Assembly: GCF_003340495.1 (NCBI RefSeq)
Contig: NZ_QASA01000001.1
Location: forward strand, 6,138,001-6,202,000
Source: Adhaeribacter pallidiroseus
Lineage (GTDB): Bacteria > Bacteroidota > Bacteroidia > Cytophagales > Hymenobacteraceae
Length of the DNA stretch: 64,000 nucleotides
Direction of reading: 5' to 3'
Made by a program: the position numbers and the translations under genes. Shown piece after piece: positions 3,828 through 58,217 of the stretch (its first letter is position 1; each line of letters opens with the position of its first letter). The notes beneath the pieces were generated by a model that was not told where the DNA came from, ran no database searches, and was given only the letters and a program-made list of their open reading frames with translations.

Positions 3828-6824
3828 CTACTTAACTAAAAGTAGTTTGTTCTGTTGGCGTTTAATAGGAGTTTGCAGTTGCAGCAGATATACTCCGGCG
3901 GCTTGTTTATTTACTTGCCATTTTACATTATAAATCTGATGCGCTTGGGCTTGGGCTTGGAACAAGGTAACTGTTTCTGCTCCCTGATTATTATATACTT
4001 TTATCGTTACAGCTTGGGTTTCGGGTACGGAAAAGCTGACCGTTACTTGTTCCGAGAATGGGTTGGGATAGGCATTAAGGCTTAGCGATTTAACTAATTC
4101 CGTAGAAGCTTGATTTACAACCGGCTTTGTTGTGAACTCCTTGGCTAATGGGGCCGCAGTTGGTTGGCTAGGTGCTGCAACTTTTATCAGCCAGTAATCA
4201 TTGCCTCCTTGGCTGGGCTGGGTTCGATCGCCACTCACGCCCGAGTCGGAGCGGCCACCTAATAAGTACCCACCATCGCTGGTAGTGAGTACCGTTCGGA
4301 TTTCCTCGTAGCCACGGCCTCCGTAACGGCTATCCCATTGCTTAACTCCGGTACTGGAGGTTTTAACCATCCAGTAATCACTGCCACCGCGACTATCCTG
4401 CGTTTTATCTCCACTAATACCTGATTCCGAACGACCGCCTAACAGATAGCCTCCATCGGACGTGATCATAATCGTACGCAGCCCTTCGTTACCGCTCCCC
4501 CCAAAACGCTTATCCCACAACTTTACGCCGTTGCTGTTTATTTTAAGCATCCAGAAATCTTTGCCCCCCTGACTTGGCTGGCTCTTATCGCCATTGCTGC
4601 CGGAAGTACTATGGCCCGCAATGAAAAAGTTACCGGTATTGGTTCCAGCAATGCCTGAACCCATTAAATTATCTTCACCAGTGCCGCCAAAACGTTTATC
4701 CCAAACTTTATTCCCGTTTACATCTAAACGGATTAACCAATAATCCATACCTCCTTGGCTAATTTCTGATTTGTCGCCGCTAATACCTGAAGCAGAGGAA
4801 CCACCTAACAAAATACTGCCATCTCGCATTAAAGAGGCACCTTCTAACGTTTCTTCTAAGGAGCCCCCATACCGCTTGTCCCAAATTTTAGTACCAGTTT
4901 GATTTATTTTTACTAACCAGTAGTCCTGGCCCCCTCGGCTACCTTGGCTTTTATCGCCGCCAGCAGAGGAGCTACTATTACCAGCTAGAATAAAATTGCC
5001 ATTAGCGTACTGTCGTATTTTCTTCAGTTCGTCATAGCCACTACCACCATACCGTTTATCCCACTGCTGATTACCTTGCGCATCTATTTTGACGATCCAG
5101 TAATCGCGGTCGCCGCGACTCGCTTGGCTTTTATCGCCGTCGGCACCAGATAGGGAACTTCCGCCTAATAAGTATCCGCCATCGAGAGTTTGGATAATGG
5201 TACTTAAATAATCATCGCCGGAGCCGCCGTACCGTTTATCCCAGAGCTTATTACCCAGCAGATCTGATTTTACAATCCAATAATCGTTTTTGCCTTGGCT
5301 GCTTTGCGTTTTATCGCCGCTAATGCCGGAGGGAGAGTTGCCACCAGACAAGTACCCACCATCAACGGTTTTAATTACCACCGCAAAACCTTCGTTACCC
5401 CGGCCGCCGTAACGCATATTCCAGGTCGAAGCAACGGGTGAGTTGTTAGCTTGTATTTTTATGATCCAGTAGTCAGATTCTCCTTGGTTAGCTCCGGTTT
5501 TATCACCGCTGGCCCCCGAATAGGAATGGCCGCCGACAATATAGTTTCCGTCACTGGTTGGTTGTAAAAATTGTAAATCATCAAAATTACTTCCTCCCAG
5601 GGTCTTATCACTAGTTAGTGTGCCATCCGTCGTTAAACTTACCATCCAATAATCAGAGTATCCTTTACTGGCTTCGGTCTTGTTGCCGCTTATATTTGAA
5701 TCCGAATAACCTCCCAAAATGTAGCCTCCGTCGCTGGTTTCCTGCACGGAACTTAGAATATCCTGACTACTGCCCCCAAAAGTATTATCCCAGGTTTTAG
5801 TGCCGTTGGCCTGTAGCTTTACGACCCAGTAATCCCAACCCCCGTTGTTTGCTTGCGTTATATCCAAACCTAAACTTGAATTAGAAAAACCACCCAGAAT
5901 ATACCCGCCATCGCTGGTTTGATGTACTGATTGTAAAAGATCATTGTTACTGCCGCCAAAGGTTTTATCCCAGGCTTTGGTGCCGTTGGCATTAAGCTTA
6001 ATCACCCAATAATCTGCTTCGCCCTTATTAGCTCCGGTTTTATCGCCGCTGATACCCGAGTTGGAATAGCCTCCTAAAATATAACCGCTATCGTTGGTTT
6101 GTTGGATAAATTGTAAACCATCAAAATCAATTCCCCCGAAAGTTTTATCCCAGGCTTTAGTACCGTCGGCATTTAACTTAACTACCCAATAATCCGAGTA
6201 TCCCTTATTTGCTTCGGTTTTATTACCGGATTTTCCGGAAAAGGAATAACCACCCAAAATATAACCGCCTTCACTGGTTTGTTTTACCATAAAAAGTTCG
6301 TCAGCTTTACTTCCTCCCAAGGTTTTATCCCAAGCTGTGGTACCATCGGCATTTAACTTAACTACCCAGTAATCCGCTTCGCCCTTACCAGCCGCAGTTT
6401 TATCACCGCTCACGCCAGAATAAGAAGTACCTCCCAAAATATAACCGCCATCGTTCGTCTGCTGTAGGGATTGTAAATCATCCCAACTACTGCCCCCCAA
6501 AGTTTTGTCCCAAGCTTTAGAGCCGTCGGCATTTAGTTTCACCACCCAATAATCGGATTCTCCTTTACCAACCCCGGTTTTGTCACCGCTTACGCCTGAA
6601 TAAGAAGAACCACCTAAAATGTAACCGCCATCCGCCGTTTGTTGCCCGGTTTGCAGATCATCCCAACTGCTGCCCCCCAAAGTTTTATCCCAGAGCTTGG
6701 TTTGACCTTGGGTGGCTACAGCAAAACAAGTCAAAAACGAGAAGGTAAGATTAATTACAACCCAACCAGGGTTAAATACCATTACTTTTCTAGGCAATTT
6801 TGATTTAAGTACAATTGTTTTCAT
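3828..6824 (-). CDS. T9SS-secreted 14-repeat (beta-propeller-like) protein
   Basis: A 998-aa secreted repeat protein; function not recognised. A signal peptide (hydrophobic about 22-40, ending ATQGQ) is followed by 14 units of about 60 aa. Each unit has the pattern WDKxxGG, DDL, TxDGGYILGG, SGxSGDKT, DYWVVK. Units 1-6 are much more alike than 8-14. Unit 7 ends in an irregular linker (NNSPVASTWN), suggesting two seven-unit propellers. The C-terminus (from about residue 917, NAYPNPFSEQ) is a type A T9SS sorting domain ending LLLVK. Each unit resembles the WD40-like or delta-60 type of repeat. It is likely a cell-surface or released binding protein. A close paralogue of the same layout lies at 26.4-29.3 kb. 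Start chosen for its signal peptide. Confidence 0.88.
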   Translation of the reverse strand: MKTIVLKSKLPRKVMVFNPGWVVINLTFSFLTCFAVATQGQTKLWDKTLGGSSWDDLQTGQQTADGGYILGGSSYSGVSGDKTGVGKGESDYWVVKLNADGSKAWDKTLGGSSWDDLQSLQQTNDGGYILGGTSYSGVSGDKTAAGKGEADYWVVKLNADGTTAWDKTLGGSKADELFMVKQTSEGGYILGGYSFSGKSGNKTEANKGYSDYWVVKLNADGTKAWDKTFGGIDFDGLQFIQQTNDSGYILGGYSNSGISGDKTGANKGEADYWVIKLNANGTKAWDKTFGGSNNDLLQSVHQTSDGGYILGGFSNSSLGLDITQANNGGWDYWVVKLQANGTKTWDNTFGGSSQDILSSVQETSDGGYILGGYSDSNISGNKTEASKGYSDYWMVSLTTDGTLTSDKTLGGSNFDDLQFLQPTSDGNYIVGGHSYSGASGDKTGANQGESDYWIIKIQANNSPVASTWNMRYGGRGNEGFAVVIKTVDGGYLSGGNSPSGISGDKTQSSQGKNDYWIVKSDLLGNKLWDKRYGGSGDDYLSTIIQTLDGGYLLGGSSLSGADGDKSQASRGDRDYWIVKIDAQGNQQWDKRYGGSGYDELKKIRQYANGNFILAGNSSSSAGGDKSQGSRGGQDYWLVKINQTGTKIWDKRYGGSLEETLEGASLMRDGSILLGGSSASGISGDKSEISQGGMDYWLIRLDVNGNKVWDKRFGGTGEDNLMGSGIAGTNTGNFFIAGHSTSGSNGDKSQPSQGGKDFWMLKINSNGVKLWDKRFGGSGNEGLRTIMITSDGGYLLGGRSESGISGDKTQDSRGGSDYWMVKTSSTGVKQWDSRYGGRGYEEIRTVLTTSDGGYLLGGRSDSGVSGDRTQPSQGGNDYWLIKVAAPSQPTAAPLAKEFTTKPVVNQASTELVKSLSLNAYPNPFSEQVTVSFSVPETQAVTIKVYNNQGAETVTLFQAQAQAHQIYNVKWQVNKQAAGVYLLQLQTPIKRQQNKLLLVK

Positions 6825-7347
6825 AGATAATTAATGATCGGATTTTAGAGATGATATTTCAAAATAAAAACCTCAAGTTTGTACTTCAAAAGAAGGAGTT
6901 GCCTCCCCCATTAACGGTAGAAGCAGTGGCACGCCATAGCTGATAAAAGAAGGAGCTCCGGAAAAGCACTATCCAGGAATCATTATCCGGGAAGCTGATT
7001 AAGATTCCTAAGGTATTCATTATTAGGTACAATGCAATTAGAAAATAGTGAAATAAATTTCTCCTATTATTTTACATCTTCTAATACATCCTAATAAAAT
7101 ACAGCTATATTCTGGTTAAGAGTCAATCTGTTTAGGTAACAAGGGAATAAGGTAAATTATAAGGAAGTTTTAATTTTGAACGACCGTTTTTTGGTATTTT
7201 CGACAATTAACTTTCTAAGCTTTTTTATTAAACTATTTTACCTACTCTAACCTGAAGCAAGTATTTTAAAGAAATTTTCAAAAATTTAAAAAAGTAAGGC
7301 AACCTTGCCTTAACAGCTTCCGTGCTGGGGGCGCAAAACAGAAGTAC
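6825..7347. other. Divergent intergenic region between T9SS protein and sigma factor
   Basis: 523 bp separate the start of the minus-strand T9SS gene from the plus-strand ECF sigma gene, so this is a divergent promoter region. I see no coding frame. It includes a possible promoter at 7174-7202 and an AAATTTAAAAAA motif at 7282-7293. Confidence 0.5.
7174..7202 (+). promoter_or_regulatory. Possible promoter of the ECF sigma operon
   Basis: TTTTG at 7174-7178 is separated by 16 nt from TATTTTCG at 7195-7202. This resembles the Bacteroidota -33 TTTG and -7 TAnnTTTG elements with one mismatch. It would give a leader of about 140 nt before the sigma gene. Confidence 0.3.
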
Positions 7348-7914
7348 GTGGCCGAAAATAGTTTCCAAGATATTCGACCCCTGATTCAGGGGTGCTTGCA
7401 GCAAGACCGGGAAGCGCAGCGCAAGTTGTACCGTAACTTCTATGGTTATGCCATGAGTATTTGCGTGCGTTATTCTAAAAGTAACGAAGAAGCGCGCGAA
7501 GTGCTCAACGATGGGTTTATGAAAGTGTTTACTAAAATTGAAAAATACGATACTGAAAAATCGTTTAAAGGCTGGTTGCGGCGCGTAATGATTAATACGG
7601 CCCTGGATAATTACCGCCACAACTACAAACATTACCACCACCGTGATTTAGAAGAAGCCGATCAGGAAACCACCGCCGAAAACATTACGCACCAGTTGAG
7701 CCACACCGATTTGATGCAGTTAGTACAGCGGTTGTCGCCGGGTTACCGGGCGGTTTTTAATTTGTACGCCATTGACGGCTATACCCACGAAGAAATTGCA
7801 GAAGCGTTGGATATATCGGTGGGTACTTCTAAATCAAACTTGTCGAAGGCTCGCGCCAATTTGCAAGCCATGTTAAAAAAAAGTCAACCGGATGAATTCA
7901 AGAAATATGCCTGA
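7348..7914 (+). CDS. ECF-family RNA polymerase sigma factor
   Basis: A 188-aa sigma-70 family protein of the ECF class. Region 2 (about 10-85) includes the DREAQRKLYRNFYGYAMSIC stretch, FMKVF and the -10-recognising WLRRVMINTALDNYR. A short acidic linker precedes region 4 (about 125-180), with LSPGYRAVFNLYAIDGYTHE and the helix-turn-helix EIAEALDISVGTSKSNLSKAR. Length is normal for the family. GTG at 7348 is the start, since no in-frame ATG fits the family N-terminus. The stop overlaps the next gene, so the two are translationally coupled, as is usual for an ECF sigma and its membrane partner. The regulon is not deducible. Confidence 0.9.
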   Translation: MAENSFQDIRPLIQGCLQQDREAQRKLYRNFYGYAMSICVRYSKSNEEAREVLNDGFMKVFTKIEKYDTEKSFKGWLRRVMINTALDNYRHNYKHYHHRDLEEADQETTAENITHQLSHTDLMQLVQRLSPGYRAVFNLYAIDGYTHEEIAEALDISVGTSKSNLSKARANLQAMLKKSQPDEFKKYA

Positions 7915-9286
7915 AGAAGAAGAACTGGACCATATGTTCCGGCAGGCCGCAGATTCATTCGAGCCGGAATTTGACCCGGCGGCTTGGCGGCAAATGGAAC
8001 AAAAGCTGGACGAAAGTAGCCGGCCACCCGCTGTTTTCGGCAAATGGGCCAGAAGATCCTTGTTGGCTTTGTTGCTATTGGTATCGGGCTGGCTAGTGTA
8101 TCATTTTGCCGCACCCGAATCAGAAACCGGCAGTGTACAAAATAAAAATATCCGGGCGGATATCCCTCCGGTGGCTGGTACACCGGCCCAAATAGCGCCC
8201 GACAAAAGGAGTTTAAGTAACCAGGAGTCTTTAAGAGCCGAAAAGCTGGCAGGTAAAGCACCAACTACCCATCTGCCCGCTGCCCAAGAGCAAGCGGATC
8301 AACCAACCCGTTTGCTCCGGCGGCTCAATTCGCCCTCGTTTACGGCGGCGCGCAAGCGAGAGGTGGTTGCTCGATCTGGGGCACAAACAAAATTAAACGC
8401 TTTGCCATTACCAGAAACTGTAAATACTAACCCGGCCGAAATAAGTGAAAATTTAAAAAATGACATTGCTCCGGCCAAAGATTCAACTCAGGCGATACCC
8501 GGAAATGAGGTAATAACCCCAATAGATCCGGACGCGGCAACAGTTACCACAATTAGCCCGGTTGACTCCACTACTAAACAAGCAGAGCTGAAAGAAGCAA
8601 TCCCGGAAAACAAAGTTGCTGCTTTAGATTCTGCTATAAACAAACCAATGGCCACCGCTGATTCGGCGCGGCAAAAGGTGCCGGTTACTTTTTTGAGTAA
8701 AGTAAGCCTAAACCTGGTATTCGGACCTGATTTTAGTACAGTTGGTTTTGTACGGCCCGAGAAAGCCAGCACCAACGTGGGCGTTTTGCTGAGTTACTCT
8801 TTTAACCGGCGGTGGGCCATTTCTACCGGGGTAGTGCGCGCTAAAAAAGTATATGGCGCTAAACCCGAAGATTATCATCCGGGAACAAATTACTGGCCGG
8901 TAGGTGCCCATTTACCCGACGATATTAATGCGGTTTGTAAAGTATTAGATATCCCGTTAAATGTACGTTACGCGGTGGTTGCCTTACCCCGGCAAACCAT
9001 TTATGTACAAACCGGTTTATCGAGTTACGTGATGTTGCACGAAGATTACCGCTACGATTATAGTAACTATGGTAAGCCTTATAGCAAACATTGGATTGTA
9101 TCAAATCAGAACCGGCACTTTTTTCAAGTGCTGAACTTATCGGTGGGCTACAGTAAACAAATTAAACCAGGAATTTCGGTGGGCGCTGAGCCTTTCGTTA
9201 AAATACCATTAGCCGGTATTGGCGCCGGCAAAGTAAACTTAACGAGTTTGGGCGCCTTTTTCTCGGTGGGTTACCGCTTCCGTTAA
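7892..9286 (+). CDS. Membrane-anchored protein with C-terminal beta-barrel-like domain, partner of the sigma factor
   Basis: 464 aa. The N-terminal cytoplasmic segment (DHMFRQAADSFEPEFDPAAW) is of the kind found in Bacteroidota genes downstream of ECF sigmas. One transmembrane helix follows (about 50-68, SLLALLLLVSGWLVY). A long low-complexity periplasmic linker rich in Pro, Ala and Thr spans about 75-260. The C-terminal region of about 190 residues has alternating hydrophobic strands typical of an outer-membrane beta-barrel/PorT-like domain, ending VGYRFR. It overlaps the sigma gene by 23 nt, or by 8 nt if the ATG at 7907 is used. By position it may modulate the sigma factor as an anti-sigma-like protein; that is inference, and no ZAS or FecR signature is evident. 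Confidence 0.7.
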   Translation: MNSRNMPEEEELDHMFRQAADSFEPEFDPAAWRQMEQKLDESSRPPAVFGKWARRSLLALLLLVSGWLVYHFAAPESETGSVQNKNIRADIPPVAGTPAQIAPDKRSLSNQESLRAEKLAGKAPTTHLPAAQEQADQPTRLLRRLNSPSFTAARKREVVARSGAQTKLNALPLPETVNTNPAEISENLKNDIAPAKDSTQAIPGNEVITPIDPDAATVTTISPVDSTTKQAELKEAIPENKVAALDSAINKPMATADSARQKVPVTFLSKVSLNLVFGPDFSTVGFVRPEKASTNVGVLLSYSFNRRWAISTGVVRAKKVYGAKPEDYHPGTNYWPVGAHLPDDINAVCKVLDIPLNVRYAVVALPRQTIYVQTGLSSYVMLHEDYRYDYSNYGKPYSKHWIVSNQNRHFFQVLNLSVGYSKQIKPGISVGAEPFVKIPLAGIGAGKVNLTSLGAFFSVGYRFR

Positions 9287-9408
9287 TAAACTACTTTTTT
9301 TATTGCCATTATTTTCAGCGTGTAAAAGTCGACTTATAAGCTGGCGGAATTAACTATAAAGTAAATAATGGGGGCTATTTACCGCCTCAGATTTCATCAA
9401 CTATTATA

Positions 9409-9801
9409 ATGTATACTCTTATGAACCATTTAAAATGGCGACTAGCCTTGCTTTGCTTTTTAAATTTAAGTTTGTTGGCCGGCTGCGCCAGTGATAACGA
9501 AGAAGATCTCAACCCCAAGCCAACCGATTGCGATACCTCGGCAGTTACTTTTTCCGGAACAGTAAACGCTATTCTGCAAGCCAATGGTTGTAAAAACTGC
9601 CATGCGGCGGCTTCTGCTTCGGGCGGCGTAATATTAGATTCGCACGCCGAAGTGAAGAAACGAGCTGACGATGGCCGTTTATTAGGCGCCATTACGCACG
9701 CTTCAGGGTATACTCCCATGCCTTTAGGCGGGACAAAACTCTCCGACTGCGACATTGCCAAGGTTAAAAAGTGGATAGATAACGGTACGCCAAATAATTA
9801 A
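9409..9801 (+). CDS. Haem-c-binding lipoprotein (cytochrome c-like)
   Basis: A 130-aa lipoprotein. The signal peptide ends in a lipobox (LSLLAGCAS), so the mature protein would be lipid-anchored. A single haem-c motif CKNCH lies in ILQANGCKNCHAAASASGG, with a candidate distal ligand Met in YTPMPLGG. The fold resembles the short cytochrome c domains annotated as planctomycete-type. ATG at 9421 (second Met) is an equally plausible start. It is followed by YceI and DUF5777 genes; such a trio fits an envelope redox or lipid-binding role, but the electron partners are unknown. Confidence 0.8.
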   Translation: MYTLMNHLKWRLALLCFLNLSLLAGCASDNEEDLNPKPTDCDTSAVTFSGTVNAILQANGCKNCHAAASASGGVILDSHAEVKKRADDGRLLGAITHASGYTPMPLGGTKLSDCDIAKVKKWIDNGTPNN

Positions 9802-11952: not shown

Positions 11953-14919
11953 ATGATGGCAGCATTAGAAAAACAAACCAGAAATTACACAGTACTCCTG
12001 CTTACCAGCTTGGCTATTATTGGGGCAGTTTTATTTTATATTCTGGGATACATCCCCGAAAACGAAAAACGAATAAATGCCCGCCATTACCGGGTGCTCA
12101 GCCGAATCGGTGAAAATCTAAATACCACTATTTCTAACTATGCCGAAAACGTAGGCGATAACTACATTTCGAAAGAAGTGAAAAAAGTTTTATTTGAGAA
12201 GAAAGTTAGTTTAGGAAAAAATAGAATTGCGGCAGAGAGCTTAATTGATTTACTAAATAAATATGATAGCCTAATAGTGCCAGGTAAATTTGGTATTCAG
12301 TTTTACTTCAATCAGTCAGATAGTATTAAAGAAGAAAAAGCGACCCAAGACACTTCTTTGTTTAATTATAGTAATCAAAAGGGCAAGTTATTCTTCAGTT
12401 TTGTCTCTCAAATAAATTCAAACACCATTCATAGTTTAAAATCAAATAGTTTTAATATTGACAGTAGTTCAGTAAGTACTTCGGTTTTTAAAACAATAAT
12501 CCCCGTTGATTCTTTGGTTGATCCTTTAATGCGGTGGGATACTTTTGACCATTTAATTATAGCCAGGAAGCTATCGGAGAAGAAGAATCTAGTTAACAAA
12601 GATAAATCGATTTATCGGTATCCGTTAGATGTTATATATAATTCTAGGCAACGGGCCGAGTTGCTGCCGCTAGATACCTTAAGCACAAAACTAGATAAAT
12701 CTTCTGGCCACGGGCCCGCCGACGTTACTATTGCCGGCGTAAAGCATAAACTATTCCTGCTTACGCAAAACGTAGGCAATGATAAATGGGTGCTTTATGG
12801 AACCGTAGCTACTAGTAAATATGAAACCGAACGCCGGGCTATCCCCTCGCATATTGTAACTTTTGCGGCTTTAGCTTTTGCTATTTTGCTTCTTGCCTTG
12901 CCTTTTTTAAAATTAATACTCATGAACAAGCAAGAGCGCTTATTAAAAAAGGATGTGATTTTTGCCGGAATTTCGCTGGTAGCCGGGATAGCGCTCATTG
13001 TTATTTTATTATTTGATGGCTATGCTTTTTACGGACCGGATAAATACCGGGAACAAGAACGATTGAAAACGCTAGCTGGAAATTTGGAAACTGAATTTAT
13101 AGAAGAGTTGAATGCGAACATAACTCAATTACAAGATTTCGATCACCTATTAAAGAATAATGAAAGTAATAAAAAAGACATTGAATCACTTAGAAGCCAA
13201 GAGTTATCTGTACCGGATACCAGCAATAGTTATGTTTTATTAGAAGAAAGACTTACTGTAAAAGGAACATACAAATTAGCGCCAGATGATATTCCTAACT
13301 TAGATCGAGTGTACTGGATGGATAATACAGGGGAAATGCTTCATTCTTGGACTACTAAGGATAAAAACGATGAAAAAGTTAATGTTAAAAATCGAGAGTA
13401 TTTTAAAAAAATAAATGCGGGAGAGGGGTGGAGTCTAAATACGAATCTAACTATCAATAGCAGCAGATTTGCCCTAGAGTCTATCCATTCTTATATTGAT
13501 GGGGAGAGATACGCTATCATAAGTGAAGAAAGCCGTTTAGGTTCTAGGAGCGTAATTGCATTAAGTACTAAGTTTACTTCGCTGCACAATACTGTTGTAC
13601 CACCAGGTTACGGTTTTTGCATTATAGATCAAGCAGGAGAAGTCTGGTTTCACCAGGATGAAAAATTAAACCTGAACGAAAACTTGCTGGCCGAAACAGA
13701 TGAAGATCTGCGGTTAAAAGCAGCTTTATACGGGCAAGTGCCGGCTCATTTTGTGCAGAATTACCAAGGCAGTAAACAAAGCATGTTTGTTACCCCGCTT
13801 AAAGGATTACCCCTGTTTTTAGTTACCTATGTAAAGCACAATTATCAGCGAAATTTTAATACCCACCTGATTGTGTTAACGGCTATCTTTTTAGCACTTT
13901 ATTTTAGTATGCTGATTATCTTTCTGGGTGTAGTTATATTAATAAAAAAACGCTCCTCCAAACTCAACTTTCAGTGGCTCTGGCCCCGGCGAAATAAAGC
14001 AATAGATTATTTTAAAATTACGTTGTCTCTTGCAGTGGCTATTGTTTTAACGCTTTTGTTCACGACTACTTATTGGCCGCTTTCATCTTTTTTTATTTTC
14101 CTATACGCCGGTATTTACTCTTTTATTTACTGCTATAAAACGTTACATGTTATTCCTTCAGAGCTACGCTCGAACCTGATACTTTGGTACTTTATTTTGA
14201 TTATCGCGGCAGTAAATGTGATTGCCTTACTAACCGGTATCAGCACTTTGCTATGGGGAATTATGTTTCAGGTTATTTTAACCAGTTTGTTTTTTCCCTC
14301 CAAATGGATAATTAAAAATGCATCGGCTAAAGCAAAGCCACTATTTGCTATTACCAGAATGTCAGCTAGTTTAAAGCTGCATTACCAGCGGTACTATGTA
14401 GGCATGCTGTTAACGTGGTTACTGCTAACCAGTGCGTTGCCAGCATTTTACGCCTTTAAACTAGCCTATAATTACGAGTCAGCGCTATTGGTAAAGCATC
14501 ATCAGCTATACTTGGCGCAATTACTGAGTCAAAATAAAAGTAAGTTATCCCAGGCCCAAGTCACTAAAATAGCTGCTACTACAATCTCGGTAACAGCACC
14601 TCCATCTAATAAAGCTTACCTCAACTTTTTTTGTAAAACCAACGATCCAACCCAATTTATTAATAAGGCATCTTCAACTTTTAAAGATCAAGTAAAAGCT
14701 TTGCTTGGCGAATTAGTACCGAATGGGGTAAAAGTTAAAACTAAAAAAGTCAGTACCCAAACCGGGAATATAGAATCCGGGAAATTAAGTGATTTTATAT
14801 CTCTCATCCGGCCCATTATGAAAGATGTTTTAGCGAATGAATATTATCTGCAAACTTATGATACCGAAAGCTTTCCGGAAAAAATATTAACTGGGAGAAG
14901 TTCGGTAATAACGTTCTAA
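11953..14919 (+). CDS. Large multi-pass membrane sensor protein with cache-like domains (probable 5' part of a split gene)
   Basis: 988 aa. TM1 (about 13-33) is followed by an extracytoplasmic region to about 290, then TMs at about 296-317 and 336-357. A second extracytoplasmic region (about 360-640) has cache-like features: DRVYWMDNTGEMLHSW, NREYFKKINAG and YGFCIIDQAGEVWFH. Further TM segments follow at about 645-670, 690-712, 715-735, 740-790 and 815-835. The last part (about 840-988) is again extracytoplasmic and ends without another TM. An extra A in the A-run 14879-14884 would continue the frame through the gap into the next gene, whose first residues and TM complete the topology. The real product is therefore probably about 1435 aa. 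Ligand and output are unknown. The upstream gap carries a 25-bp hairpin. Confidence 0.75.
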   Translation: MMAALEKQTRNYTVLLLTSLAIIGAVLFYILGYIPENEKRINARHYRVLSRIGENLNTTISNYAENVGDNYISKEVKKVLFEKKVSLGKNRIAAESLIDLLNKYDSLIVPGKFGIQFYFNQSDSIKEEKATQDTSLFNYSNQKGKLFFSFVSQINSNTIHSLKSNSFNIDSSSVSTSVFKTIIPVDSLVDPLMRWDTFDHLIIARKLSEKKNLVNKDKSIYRYPLDVIYNSRQRAELLPLDTLSTKLDKSSGHGPADVTIAGVKHKLFLLTQNVGNDKWVLYGTVATSKYETERRAIPSHIVTFAALAFAILLLALPFLKLILMNKQERLLKKDVIFAGISLVAGIALIVILLFDGYAFYGPDKYREQERLKTLAGNLETEFIEELNANITQLQDFDHLLKNNESNKKDIESLRSQELSVPDTSNSYVLLEERLTVKGTYKLAPDDIPNLDRVYWMDNTGEMLHSWTTKDKNDEKVNVKNREYFKKINAGEGWSLNTNLTINSSRFALESIHSYIDGERYAIISEESRLGSRSVIALSTKFTSLHNTVVPPGYGFCIIDQAGEVWFHQDEKLNLNENLLAETDEDLRLKAALYGQVPAHFVQNYQGSKQSMFVTPLKGLPLFLVTYVKHNYQRNFNTHLIVLTAIFLALYFSMLIIFLGVVILIKKRSSKLNFQWLWPRRNKAIDYFKITLSLAVAIVLTLLFTTTYWPLSSFFIFLYAGIYSFIYCYKTLHVIPSELRSNLILWYFILIIAAVNVIALLTGISTLLWGIMFQVILTSLFFPSKWIIKNASAKAKPLFAITRMSASLKLHYQRYYVGMLLTWLLLTSALPAFYAFKLAYNYESALLVKHHQLYLAQLLSQNKSKLSQAQVTKIAATTISVTAPPSNKAYLNFFCKTNDPTQFINKASSTFKDQVKALLGELVPNGVKVKTKKVSTQTGNIESGKLSDFISLIRPIMKDVLANEYYLQTYDTESFPEKILTGRSSVITF

Positions 14920-14978
14920 AGTTAAGTTATCAAAATCCGGCTAATCAGAATAGAGTAAGCCTGACTTCGCAAATACCT

Positions 14979-16259
14979 TTGTTTCGTGCGCCAAGTGTAT
15001 TCTACTCAGGCTCTAACTGGCCTTTAAACGTTTCTAGTTGGTTTTTCTGGTTAGATATAGGGCTTTTGCTTTTTTTGCTTTTTCTTTTTGTATCGTTTCT
15101 GGTGCAACGAATCTTCAACCTGAACATTATCCTGAATGCCCGCATGCGGCAGCTTGACGTATCGCTGCTAAAGCCGGAAGTTAAAAATAGAGTACTGTTG
15201 ATTGCTTTACCCGATGCACCAGATATTATAGAAATTATAAAAAGTAAAAGCGCTAACCCCGCGGATGTAAAAATAATAGAATATGATTTTGCGGAAGAAG
15301 ATTTCGCCGCTAAGCCATATAACATGCAATCCGTCTCCGAGAAAGAATCAATTGTAATTTTGGCGAAAAATTTTGATTACGATCCATTTTCCGAGGCTTC
15401 TTTAAAATTAAAAATAGCATTTCTTCAGAAGCTGAACGCTTTAGAAAAAGTTAAAATTGTTTTGCAATTGTCCAGGCATCCCGACTGCTGGGAAGATAAA
15501 TTAAAGGAAGAAGAACGGAAAGAAGCGCAAGAATTGCCTGATTTAACTTATGTTTTACTTTTACAACAATTTTTAGACAACCTGATTTTGTACAATAAAA
15601 TTTTCGAACCCTTACAGGGGTTTAAAGAAATATCTTTTTTTAATGATAGGTATGTTGCTGATAATAAAGAATATTTAATTAGAGTAATAGAAGAAGAATG
15701 CAATGCAGTTAATCATCTGAAGCAGTTTAAAGAACCGATGAAAAACTATGTAATAAGCCATTGCCAAAGTAAAAATATAAATCGGGAAGATATTATATTG
15801 CGCCTAAAAAGTTTGGCCCAACTTTACTACCGCGGTATATGGTCGGCGTGTACGGAGGAGGAGCATTATTTTTTGTACGATATGGCGCAGGACGGATTGG
15901 TAAATACCAAAAACTTAAGCGTTTTATCTTCTTTACTTGGAAAAGGATTATTACTGGCAGAAGATACGGTGAAGCTAAAAATTATGAATGATAGCTTTAG
16001 AAGCTTTGTATTAACAGAAGTAAACCCAGAGGAAGCGCTCCGTTACGAAAGAAAAAATTCCCGAGGCAGTAAGTGGGAGTTATACCGGACACCATTAATA
16101 TTAATTCTTTTGGGAGTGGCCTCTTTTATTTTTTTCACCCAGAAGGAGAGCTGGGCCAATATAATCACCATTATTACGGCTGTTTCTACTATTCTTACCA
16201 TACTTCCCAGGCTAGGATTTTTGGTACCTGCTTTTTTAATACCTAAAGAAAGTAAATAA
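14979..16259 (+). CDS. Membrane protein with NTPase-like/winged-helix-like cytoplasmic region (probable 3' part of the same gene)
   Basis: As delimited, 426 aa from a TTG codon. The same frame is open back to 14862 with plausible coding residues (FGNNVLKLSYQNPANQ), so the TTG is probably not a real start. A TM at about 25-45 is followed by a region resembling a P-loop NTPase (VLLIALPDAPDIIE; a Walker B-like hydrophobic strand SIVILAKNFDYDP; KVKIVLQLSRHP). No GxxxxGK[ST] is present. A helical, possibly winged-helix section follows (ACTEEEHYFLYDMAQDG, IMNDSFRSFVL). Two C-terminal TMs lie at about 368-385 and 393-420. I infer a signalling protein with a non-catalytic or atypical nucleotide-binding domain fused to the upstream sensor. 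Confidence 0.65.
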   Translation: MFRAPSVFYSGSNWPLNVSSWFFWLDIGLLLFLLFLFVSFLVQRIFNLNIILNARMRQLDVSLLKPEVKNRVLLIALPDAPDIIEIIKSKSANPADVKIIEYDFAEEDFAAKPYNMQSVSEKESIVILAKNFDYDPFSEASLKLKIAFLQKLNALEKVKIVLQLSRHPDCWEDKLKEEERKEAQELPDLTYVLLLQQFLDNLILYNKIFEPLQGFKEISFFNDRYVADNKEYLIRVIEEECNAVNHLKQFKEPMKNYVISHCQSKNINREDIILRLKSLAQLYYRGIWSACTEEEHYFLYDMAQDGLVNTKNLSVLSSLLGKGLLLAEDTVKLKIMNDSFRSFVLTEVNPEEALRYERKNSRGSKWELYRTPLILILLGVASFIFFTQKESWANIITIITAVSTILTILPRLGFLVPAFLIPKESK

Positions 16260-19306: not shown

Positions 19307-19477
19307 TTAGTTGTTCGTTATTCGTTGTTCGATCAATAATATGCTTTAAAGAGTGAGCTACTTTTATTTAAGTGCTTCTAAGAATGTAAATCAGGTGGTT
19401 ATATAGTAGTCTTGTGGCTTCTAAGTATTTATAAACCTAGCAATGAACAACAAATAACTACTTATCAGCTATTCCCG

Positions 19478-20092
19478 ATGAATGAGTTGGTTTACGAAGA
19501 AAGCGTACGACGCGAATTAAGAATCTGGCAACGCCAAATGGGGCAGTCTCCCACGTGGACAAATCGGTTAGCCAAGCGTCTGCAACAGAAAATAAATAAC
19601 ATTATCCCGGAAAAAATACACCAGGCCATTACCGGTGCGGGTGGTATTTTACTAGGCTTAGCCGATTTTCCTTTGTTACTCGGCATAAAATTAAAAATGC
19701 TGCATGATATTGCGGCGCTGTACGGCCACTTCGTAACCGATTACCGGGAGCGCATTTATCTGTTATACATTTTCTAATTAGCCTTTAGCAGCCAGGAACA
19801 GCGCATTCACATTTATCGCCAAATGACTAACTGGGAAGAACAGAAAAAACACTTGCCCGCTGATATTCATCAGTTTAACTGGCGCACTTTTCAGCAAGAA
19901 TACCGCGATTATATTGATTTAGCTAAACTGGCGCAGTTTATTCCGGTGATTGGCGCCCCCGTAGGAGCCGTAGTTAATTACCGTTTGCTGGATAAGCTGG
20001 GCCGTACCGCCATGAACGCTTACCGGATGCGGTGGTTGGCAGAATCTCACATAACTCAAATGGCGAATTATAATTGCGTACGTTTCTATTGA
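19478..20092 (+). pseudogene. EcsC family protein, broken by nonsense codon and internal deletion
   Basis: The reading frame codes for an EcsC-family protein (membrane-associated, linked to ABC transporter function in Bacillus) but is interrupted. From ATG 19478 (MNELVYEESVRRELR) it runs to TAA at 19775-19777. The same frame then continues without change (LAFSSQEQRIHIYRQM, then TNWEEQ and the conserved IPVIGAPVGAVVNYRL). The stop looks like a CAA-to-TAA change at a position where I recall Gln in relatives (YIFQLAFSS). Between IIPEKIHQAIT and GAGGILLGLADF a segment of roughly 50-60 residues present in relatives, as I recall them, appears to be missing. The C-terminus after AYRMRWL looks degenerate too. 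A downstream ATG at 19823 could express only the last 89 residues. Confidence 0.8.
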
Positions 20093-56934: not shown

Positions 56935-58217
56935 ATGCAGAAATCGAACCAAACCCCTAACATTGTATTGGCCGAAATAATTACCATCGGCGACGAAATT
57001 TTATACGGCCAGGTAGTAGACACTAATTCAGCGTTTATGGGCGCGGAACTAGGGAAAATAGGCATTAAAGTAAAACAAATTACCTCCGTATCCGACGACC
57101 CAACGCATATTGTGCAGGCTCTGGATGCCGCCCGCACCCGCGCTGACGTTATTTTAATTACCGGCGGCTTAGGACCTACCAAAGATGATTTAACCAAAAC
57201 CACGCTGGCGAAATACTTTAACGTGGGCTTAAAACTCGACGAACAATCGCTGGCCGATGTAACCGAAATTTTTAAAAATACGGTCGGGAAGTAACCGAAC
57301 TGAACCGGCAGCAAGCTTTTTTACCCGCAAATTGCCAACCCGTGCGCAACATTATGGGAACCGCGCCGGGCATGTGGTTTCACGTGGATGGTAAAATTAT
57401 GGTGTCGATGCCGGGGGTGCCTTTCGAAATGAAAACCATGATGACTGATATTGTACTGCCCCGTTTGCAGCAGCATTTTGGCATGCCCAAAATTAATCAC
57501 AAAGTAGTCATGACCATTGGCATTGGCGAATCGTTTCTGGCCGAAAAAATAGCTGCTTGGGAAGATCAGTTGCCGCCGCATATTAAACTGGCGTATTTGC
57601 CCAAACTAGGCAGTGTAAGATTACGGTTAACCGGTCTGGATACCGGTACCGGCGATTTGGAAACCGAGATGCAGGCCGAAGTAGATAAACTAAGCACCAT
57701 TATTCCAGAGTATATTTTTGCTTACGGCGAAGTAAGCTTACCCGAAGCCATTGGTAATTTATTAAAAAAACATTACCTGACCATTGCTACCGCCGAAAGC
57801 TGCACGGGTGGGATGGTGGCGCAAAAACTAACCAGCATCTCGGGTTCGTCGGCGTACTTTAAAGGTGGTATAGTGGCCTACGACAACGCTGTAAAAGCCG
57901 AACAGTTAGGGGTATCCGAAACTACTCTGGAAACTTTTGGCGCCGTAAGCGAAGAAACAGTAAGTGAGATGGCGCAAAACGTACGGCAGCTTTTAAAAAC
58001 CGATATTGGCATTGCTACCAGCGGCATAGCCGGACCAACCGGCGGCACCCCGGAAAAGCCCGTTGGCACCATTTGGATTGCTTACGCTGATGCGCACCAA
58101 ACCATTGCCAAAAAACTAAATTTTAACCGTACCCGCGAATTAAATATCGAATACACCACCATGAACGTGCTGAACCTGGTGCGGCAAAGTTTACCGGAAG
58201 CATTTCGAATCGGGTAA
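56935..58217 (+). pseudogene. cinA: cinA-like gene (competence/damage-inducible protein) with a frameshift
   Basis: The first 119 codons (56935-57294) encode the CinA N-terminal MoCF_BD domain (AEIITIGDEILYGQVVDTNS, LITGGLGPTKDDLTKTTLAK). At the A-run 57274-57278 the frame is lost. One extra A would turn IFKN into IFKKYGREVTELNRQQAFLP and join the frame that continues to 58217. That part holds MPGVPFEMKTMM and the C-terminal nicotinamide-nucleotide amidase domain (LTIATAESCTGGMVAQKLTS, GIATSGIAGPTGGTPEKPVG). The restored protein is about 427 aa, a normal CinA length. Known role: NMN deamidation and pyrophosphatase-type housekeeping. Either a sequencing indel or a true frameshift. Confidence 0.88.

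Follow-up and report, generated by a model that had tools for sequence, protein, structure and literature searches.

Does a pair of neighbouring open reading frames (ORFs) in Adhaeribacter pallidiroseus stand for two proteins or for one, and what might that protein do? The frames lie in a stretch of 64 kb (the window; positions 6138001-6202000 of contig C1) of a 6.43 Mb genome assembled in 3 contigs. The preliminary description of this DNA proposed a single sensor protein, with two cache domains and a nucleoside triphosphatase (NTPase)-like cytoplasmic part, interrupted by a frame change. Judging by homology, a single interrupted gene spans the frames 11953-14919 and 14862-16259, with a predicted product of about 1450 residues and one reading-frame change in the window copy, which as assembled would not yield the full protein. 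With a probability of roughly 55%, we take the product to be an unnamed receptor with 12 transmembrane (TM) segments that passes on an outside signal by way of a mostly non-hydrolysing NTPase/winged-helix module, where ligand binding, relay and output are steps that we infer.

Two frames and their homologues

Both ORFs are confirmed with the coordinates first given for them, as is the extension of the second. Frame one begins with ATG and encodes 988 residues. Frame two encodes 426 residues counted from the TTG at 14979; it is open as far back as 14862, and ATG, GTG and TTG are absent from that upstream part. They are connected by the homologue L013 of the same genus (genome G024): its residues 975-1010 align with the end of frame one (E 2e-7), and its residues 1010-1036 align with frame two ahead of every start codon (E 6e-4). 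The homology thus crosses from one frame to the other at one residue, as expected if the two adjacent frames are one protein. In a second homologue, L018, the end of frame one again finds a counterpart (E 8e-9), and the short beginning of frame two, taken alone, finds none (best E 1.2). The codon score is -0.468 for the final 11 codons of frame one; in frame two it is 0.147 for 14880-14918 (13 codons), 0.01 for 14919-14978 (20 codons) and 0.166 for 14979-16256, the coding score past 14979 being equal to that before the break. Codon usage by itself is weak evidence for a frame switch at the overlap, and the switch was accepted on homology.

After removal of overlaps (four identical pairs; genomes G329 and G359 had been met twice), we found 27 homologues in 26 other Bacteroidota genomes. 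Complete single frames of 1107-1579 residues account for 25 of them. L018 is a single frame truncated at its contig ends, with a protein identical to that of G034 (same genus), and L045 is split into two ORFs. In all 27 a single open frame runs over the loop between TM9 and TM10, the site of the break in the window, and for this reason we regard the window gene as one gene, interrupted. Programmed frameshifting was ruled out, as the homologues' frames are single at that site and none requires it.

The family is sparsely spread in Bacteroidota and has no name. Counting the host genome in each search, frame two was found in 7 of 150 genomes of the host's taxonomic family, frame one in 4 of 98 relatives' genomes, and the gene in 14 of 395 genomes at class level and 7 of 395 at phylum level. 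An alignment search of genome contigs gave 7 loci, and a single-protein query against genome contigs found no relative. Within the genus the gene is present in 3 of 8 genomes, the host's among them, which makes for a patchy distribution. One genome (G742) carries two distant members of the family, L063 and L064, of 1187 and 1551 residues.

Membrane topology and the extracytoplasmic sensors

The order of parts is TM1, sensor 1, TM2-3, sensor 2 of dCache type, TM4-9, an outer loop, TM10, a cytoplasmic domain with NTPase-like and winged-helix-like parts, and TM11-12. Hydropathy of the window frames gave 9 + 3 segments at a threshold of 1.5, in agreement with the TM segments first listed, and 8 + 3 at 1.6; complete homologues have 8-12 hydrophobic segments. 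Among seven members with 12 segments, lysine plus arginine make up 155 of 848 residues in short loops predicted inside versus 12 of 125 in those predicted outside, an excess in modest agreement with this topology.

Sensor 2 is, by sequence homology, a dCache domain at the level of the family, and the membership of the window copy comes through its homologues. The Pfam model dCache_1 (PF02743) matches L043 above its cut-off (46.2 versus 45 bits) and L039 slightly below it (43). It was matched by 3 of 7 members of one alignment (A2; best E 2e-9) and, at E <= 1, by 3 of 12 homologues scanned, L046 reaching only 0.11. In the PDB, sequence profiles of sensor 2 matched sporulation kinase D at E 4e-4 and, at E 0.0032, a uracil chemoreceptor. 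The AlphaFold model of frame one (pLDDT 64.0, pTM 0.62) had 70 PDB matches in Foldseek at E <= 0.001; among the 50 listed, which come without aligned ranges, most are dCache ligand-binding domains, and by these matches the model belongs to the dCache fold. For sensor 1 no PDB match was found by sequence profile; in the AlphaFold model it is alpha/beta. The original idea of a protein with two caches therefore holds for the two extracytoplasmic sensors, and for the cache type of the second at family level, and is not supported for sensor 1, which has no profile match.

For the whole protein, no Pfam or NCBIfam model beyond dCache was found (the NCBIfam scan covered the window and 5 homologues, and PHROGs were not searched), so that, dCache domain excepted, the earlier statement that no named family has this layout holds for these two collections. 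We found no paper on the family in the open-licence PMC literature, which does not prove it unpublished.

The cytoplasmic domain

The cytoplasmic domains of 18 members, the window included, were aligned (alignment A7), leaving aside L047 and L049-L051, where the span between TM10 and TM11 is short, and L018, whose contig ends within the domain. In the window the GK of Walker A is absent, NFDY stands at the place of Walker B and VLQLSRHP at that of the sensor-1 strand. Its loop aligns with GLPGSGKS of L039 and GPPGSGKT of L044, the two members of 18 that keep the GxxxxGK[ST] motif. Three more (L040, L045 and L046) have GK followed by a different last residue, and GK is absent from 13, the window among them; the lysine itself is absent from the P-loop column in 12, since L043 keeps it after an N. 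Reading the sequences of L061-L065, found later and outside the alignment, gave no GxxxxGK[ST]. The window copy lacks the intact Walker A by which STAND and AAA+ proteins are recognised; the strands of Walker B and sensor 1 do follow the P-loop strand, in the alignment and in a low-confidence model.

In that model, strands fill the four places where those of the P-loop, the second strand, Walker B and sensor 1 are expected, and are followed by helices and the winged-helix-like part, for which helices and a hairpin are predicted and which PDB profile matches of NTPase families stop short of. The winged-helix stretch is the best conserved of the five cytoplasmic stretches compared, with a mean entropy of 1.65 bits (sensor-1 strand 1.98, Walker B 2.33, P-loop 2.35, linker 2.47). 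It is also kept in L047 and L049-L051, in which most of the NTPase-like core is gone and TM10 and TM11 are 141-232 residues apart, versus 322 in the window (TM10 of L047 and L020 was placed by eye). Binding of DNA by the winged helix was considered and dropped, for there is no sign of it and the net charge of the stretch is -4 to +3 in the 18 members.

Further similarity to NTPases comes from the NSF ATPase, matched by sequence profile (E 0.0014), and from Pfam matches below cut-off to AAA_11, nSTAND3, nSTAND1 and NB-ARC, in 1-2 of the 18 members each (best E 0.0005-0.0016). Comparison by hhalign gave 50% for nSTAND1, 15% for AAA, 1.6% for ABC and 0.8% for nSTAND3. The curated STAND models nSTAND1, nSTAND3 and NB-ARC stay below cut-off in homologues and have no match in the window. 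The top Foldseek matches of the cytoplasmic model are ORC chains (E 0.002, TM-score 0.17, root-mean-square deviation (rmsd) 21 Å); at lower ranks come a clamp loader (rank 6) and, at rank 12 with E 0.048, the STAND protein Avs4.

Because canonical P-loops of relatives align with the window's degenerate loop, the cytoplasmic domain is likely of P-loop NTPase ancestry, and its affiliation to STAND is possible. An ancestral P-loop is suggested since independent gain is unlikely; the Walker A tree, made by a quick method, with long branches and with GK absent in 23 of 27 rows, is weak for counting losses. Alignment and model agree with the preliminary description: one region resembles a P-loop domain but lacks Walker A, and a winged-helix-like region comes after it. 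The NTPase reading of that description draws on the homologues that bear a P-loop; the structure prediction proposed there as a check is poor for the window copy.

Several results weigh against the receptor that we propose. The window copy alone matches neither dCache in Pfam at E <= 1 nor an NTPase model. The cytoplasmic model is poor (pLDDT 63.4, pTM 0.32) and found nothing in Foldseek at E <= 0.001, its top matches having TM-scores of about 0.17 and rmsd >20 Å. The hhalign match to nSTAND1 spans 56 columns, which lie around Walker B and sensor 1 and exclude the P-loop. Finally, the two adjacent ORFs of L045 mean that a two-chain form could exist.

Table 1. Features of the sensor gene, in window coordinates.
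Feature	Coordinates	Strand	Basis
First frame: TM1, sensor 1, TM2-3, dCache sensor 2, TM4-TM9, part of outer loop	11953..14919	+	ORF, hydropathy, single-frame homologues
Sensor 1, extracytoplasmic, alpha/beta in model, fold unproven	12052..12852	+	AlphaFold model m294574e9bfe6
Sensor 2, dCache domain by homology	13015..13884	+	Homology: Pfam in relatives, PDB profile match, Foldseek
TM4-TM9 membrane bundle (approximate)	13885..14454	+	Hydropathy
Overlap of both open frames, holding the frame switch of the homology	14862..14919	.	Codon scores, L013 matches
Second open frame: rest of outer loop, TM10, cytoplasmic domain, TM11-12	14862..16259	+	ORF, hydropathy
Degenerate P-loop NTPase-like part	15114..15587	+	Alignment A7, alignment slices, model
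Winged-helix-like part	15783..16022	+	Model, alignment A7, conservation
TM11-TM12 and C-terminus	16080..16259	+	Hydropathy

Origin of the break, proposed function and significance

That two separate proteins are made, the second starting at 14979, is very improbable. The case for it is L045 (genome G231), with two ORFs in the same frame (5425-7614 and 7618-9762, of 729 and 714 residues). That homologue, possibly a two-chain form or a nonsense mutation, is divided by a stop within the membrane bundle, away from the break of the window, with an ATG just past the stop; against two proteins stand also the 25 single frames and the homologous coding sequence that extends upstream of 14979. Homologues that are consistently two proteins, named at the outset as the result that would speak for separate genes, were not seen, and the single split one is split elsewhere. 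Given one gene, the break is an assembly error or a recent mutation, at about even odds. Two other genes of the window are broken too, making three in 64 kb. A cinA-like gene (56935-58217) lies in two overlapping frames beside homopolymer runs; its pieces match positions 3-106 and 107-412 of NF001813, with nothing lost, and of 18 other genomes searched, 17 hold a single frame that scores above cut-off and one gave no match. An EcsC-family gene (19412-20092) has an in-frame stop at 19775-19777. It is an even bet that the frame change arose as an error of assembly and that the living cell makes the full-length protein: no further stop or frame change occurs across about 1450 codons, cinA is split in a similar manner, and homopolymer runs lie at or next to both frame changes, which is what suggests such an error. 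However, the window holds 505 runs of 5-8 A or T, which makes a run near the overlap weak evidence; the completeness score of the genome is 99.97%, and the lesion of the EcsC gene, being an in-frame stop, points equally to real decay. A real and recent change, leaving a young pseudogene or a cell that makes the sensor and TM part alone, has somewhat less than an even chance. It is favoured by the three broken genes so close together and by the patchiness of the family, which must therefore be dispensable, and disfavoured by the absence of a second lesion, by the undiminished coding score past 14979 and by the homopolymers at or beside two of the three breaks. A scan for overlapping frames in 304 kb (the window and 12 stretches of the same genome) gave 10 candidates, most of them unverified.

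The suggestion of a defence-type protein received little support from our data, and we consider it unlikely that the family is a membrane-bound STAND-type defence or cell-suicide protein. Its patchy spread and the STAND-like matches of relatives bearing a P-loop would agree with such a role, as would PADLOC matches among the 18 cytoplasmic domains: MkoA by two models, in one member each (E 2.3e-6 and 2.7e-4), mad8 in 3 members (best E 5.1e-5) and C3a196 in 1 (E 0.0016). We tentatively read these few matches as P-loop similarity. For the window frames PADLOC gave no match at E <= 1, and for the window's cytoplasmic domain only C3a64 (E 0.18); the P-loop is lost in most members, and the dCache sensor faces outward. 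Domains of this kind bind small molecules. The loci have no widespread conserved neighbour (PADLOC was not run on neighbours): among the 14 largest clusters listed, the largest occurs at 4 of 22 loci, with differing distances and orientations, and several are common to only three Hymenobacter loci (L014, L016 and L020). Deducing the function from neighbours was dropped on account of that low count.

In the receptor that we favour, a small ligand would bind the dCache domain outside the cell, and the change that it induces would travel through TM3/TM4 and the TM4-TM10 bundle. The NTPase/winged-helix module, anchored by TM10 and TM11-12, would then shift its conformation or oligomeric state; in the lineage of the window this relay would proceed without ATP hydrolysis, the module being a pseudo-NTPase. 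The output may lie in the membrane part itself or with a partner that is not linked, because no fixed neighbour was found. More tentatively, the family may be a new class of receptor, in which dCache acts via a 12-TM protein on a membrane-held STAND/AAA-type NTPase with winged helix that decayed to a pseudo-enzyme in most lineages, the winged helix being kept and signalling being ATP-free.

Known dCache_1 receptors (chemoreceptors and histidine kinases such as KinD and DctB) likewise have an extracytoplasmic dCache flanked by TM helices, whereas the window family has no HAMP, kinase, MCP or GGDEF match in Pfam scans, has about 12 TM segments and would use as output an NTPase/winged-helix-like module between TM segments. 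STAND NTPases (nSTAND1, nSTAND3, NB-ARC) resemble it in the P-loop of some members, the sensor-1 strand and perhaps the predicted C-terminal winged helix, and the family's D/N-H-F-E at the Walker B place resembles the D-Q-F-E of nSTAND1; in contrast to them, its matches lie below curated cut-offs, Walker A is mostly lost and the domain sits between TM10 and TM11. With ORC/Cdc6-type and other AAA+ proteins the likeness lies in the top Foldseek matches and the NSF profile match, but E-values are marginal, TM-scores low and the window family is membrane-embedded.

According to the title of a survey (PMC4822843), cache domains are the largest superfamily of extracellular sensors in prokaryotes; the portion of it consulted gives cache architectures known signalling outputs, the SMP_2 family excepted, and the words ATPase and NTPase are absent from its main text. 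If true, a STAND/AAA-type module at the end of a cache receptor would be an additional type of output. Intact copies of the sensor gene are available in other genomes, and with canonical, partly decayed and lost P-loops in one family, the need of the switch for ATP could be tested with natural variants.

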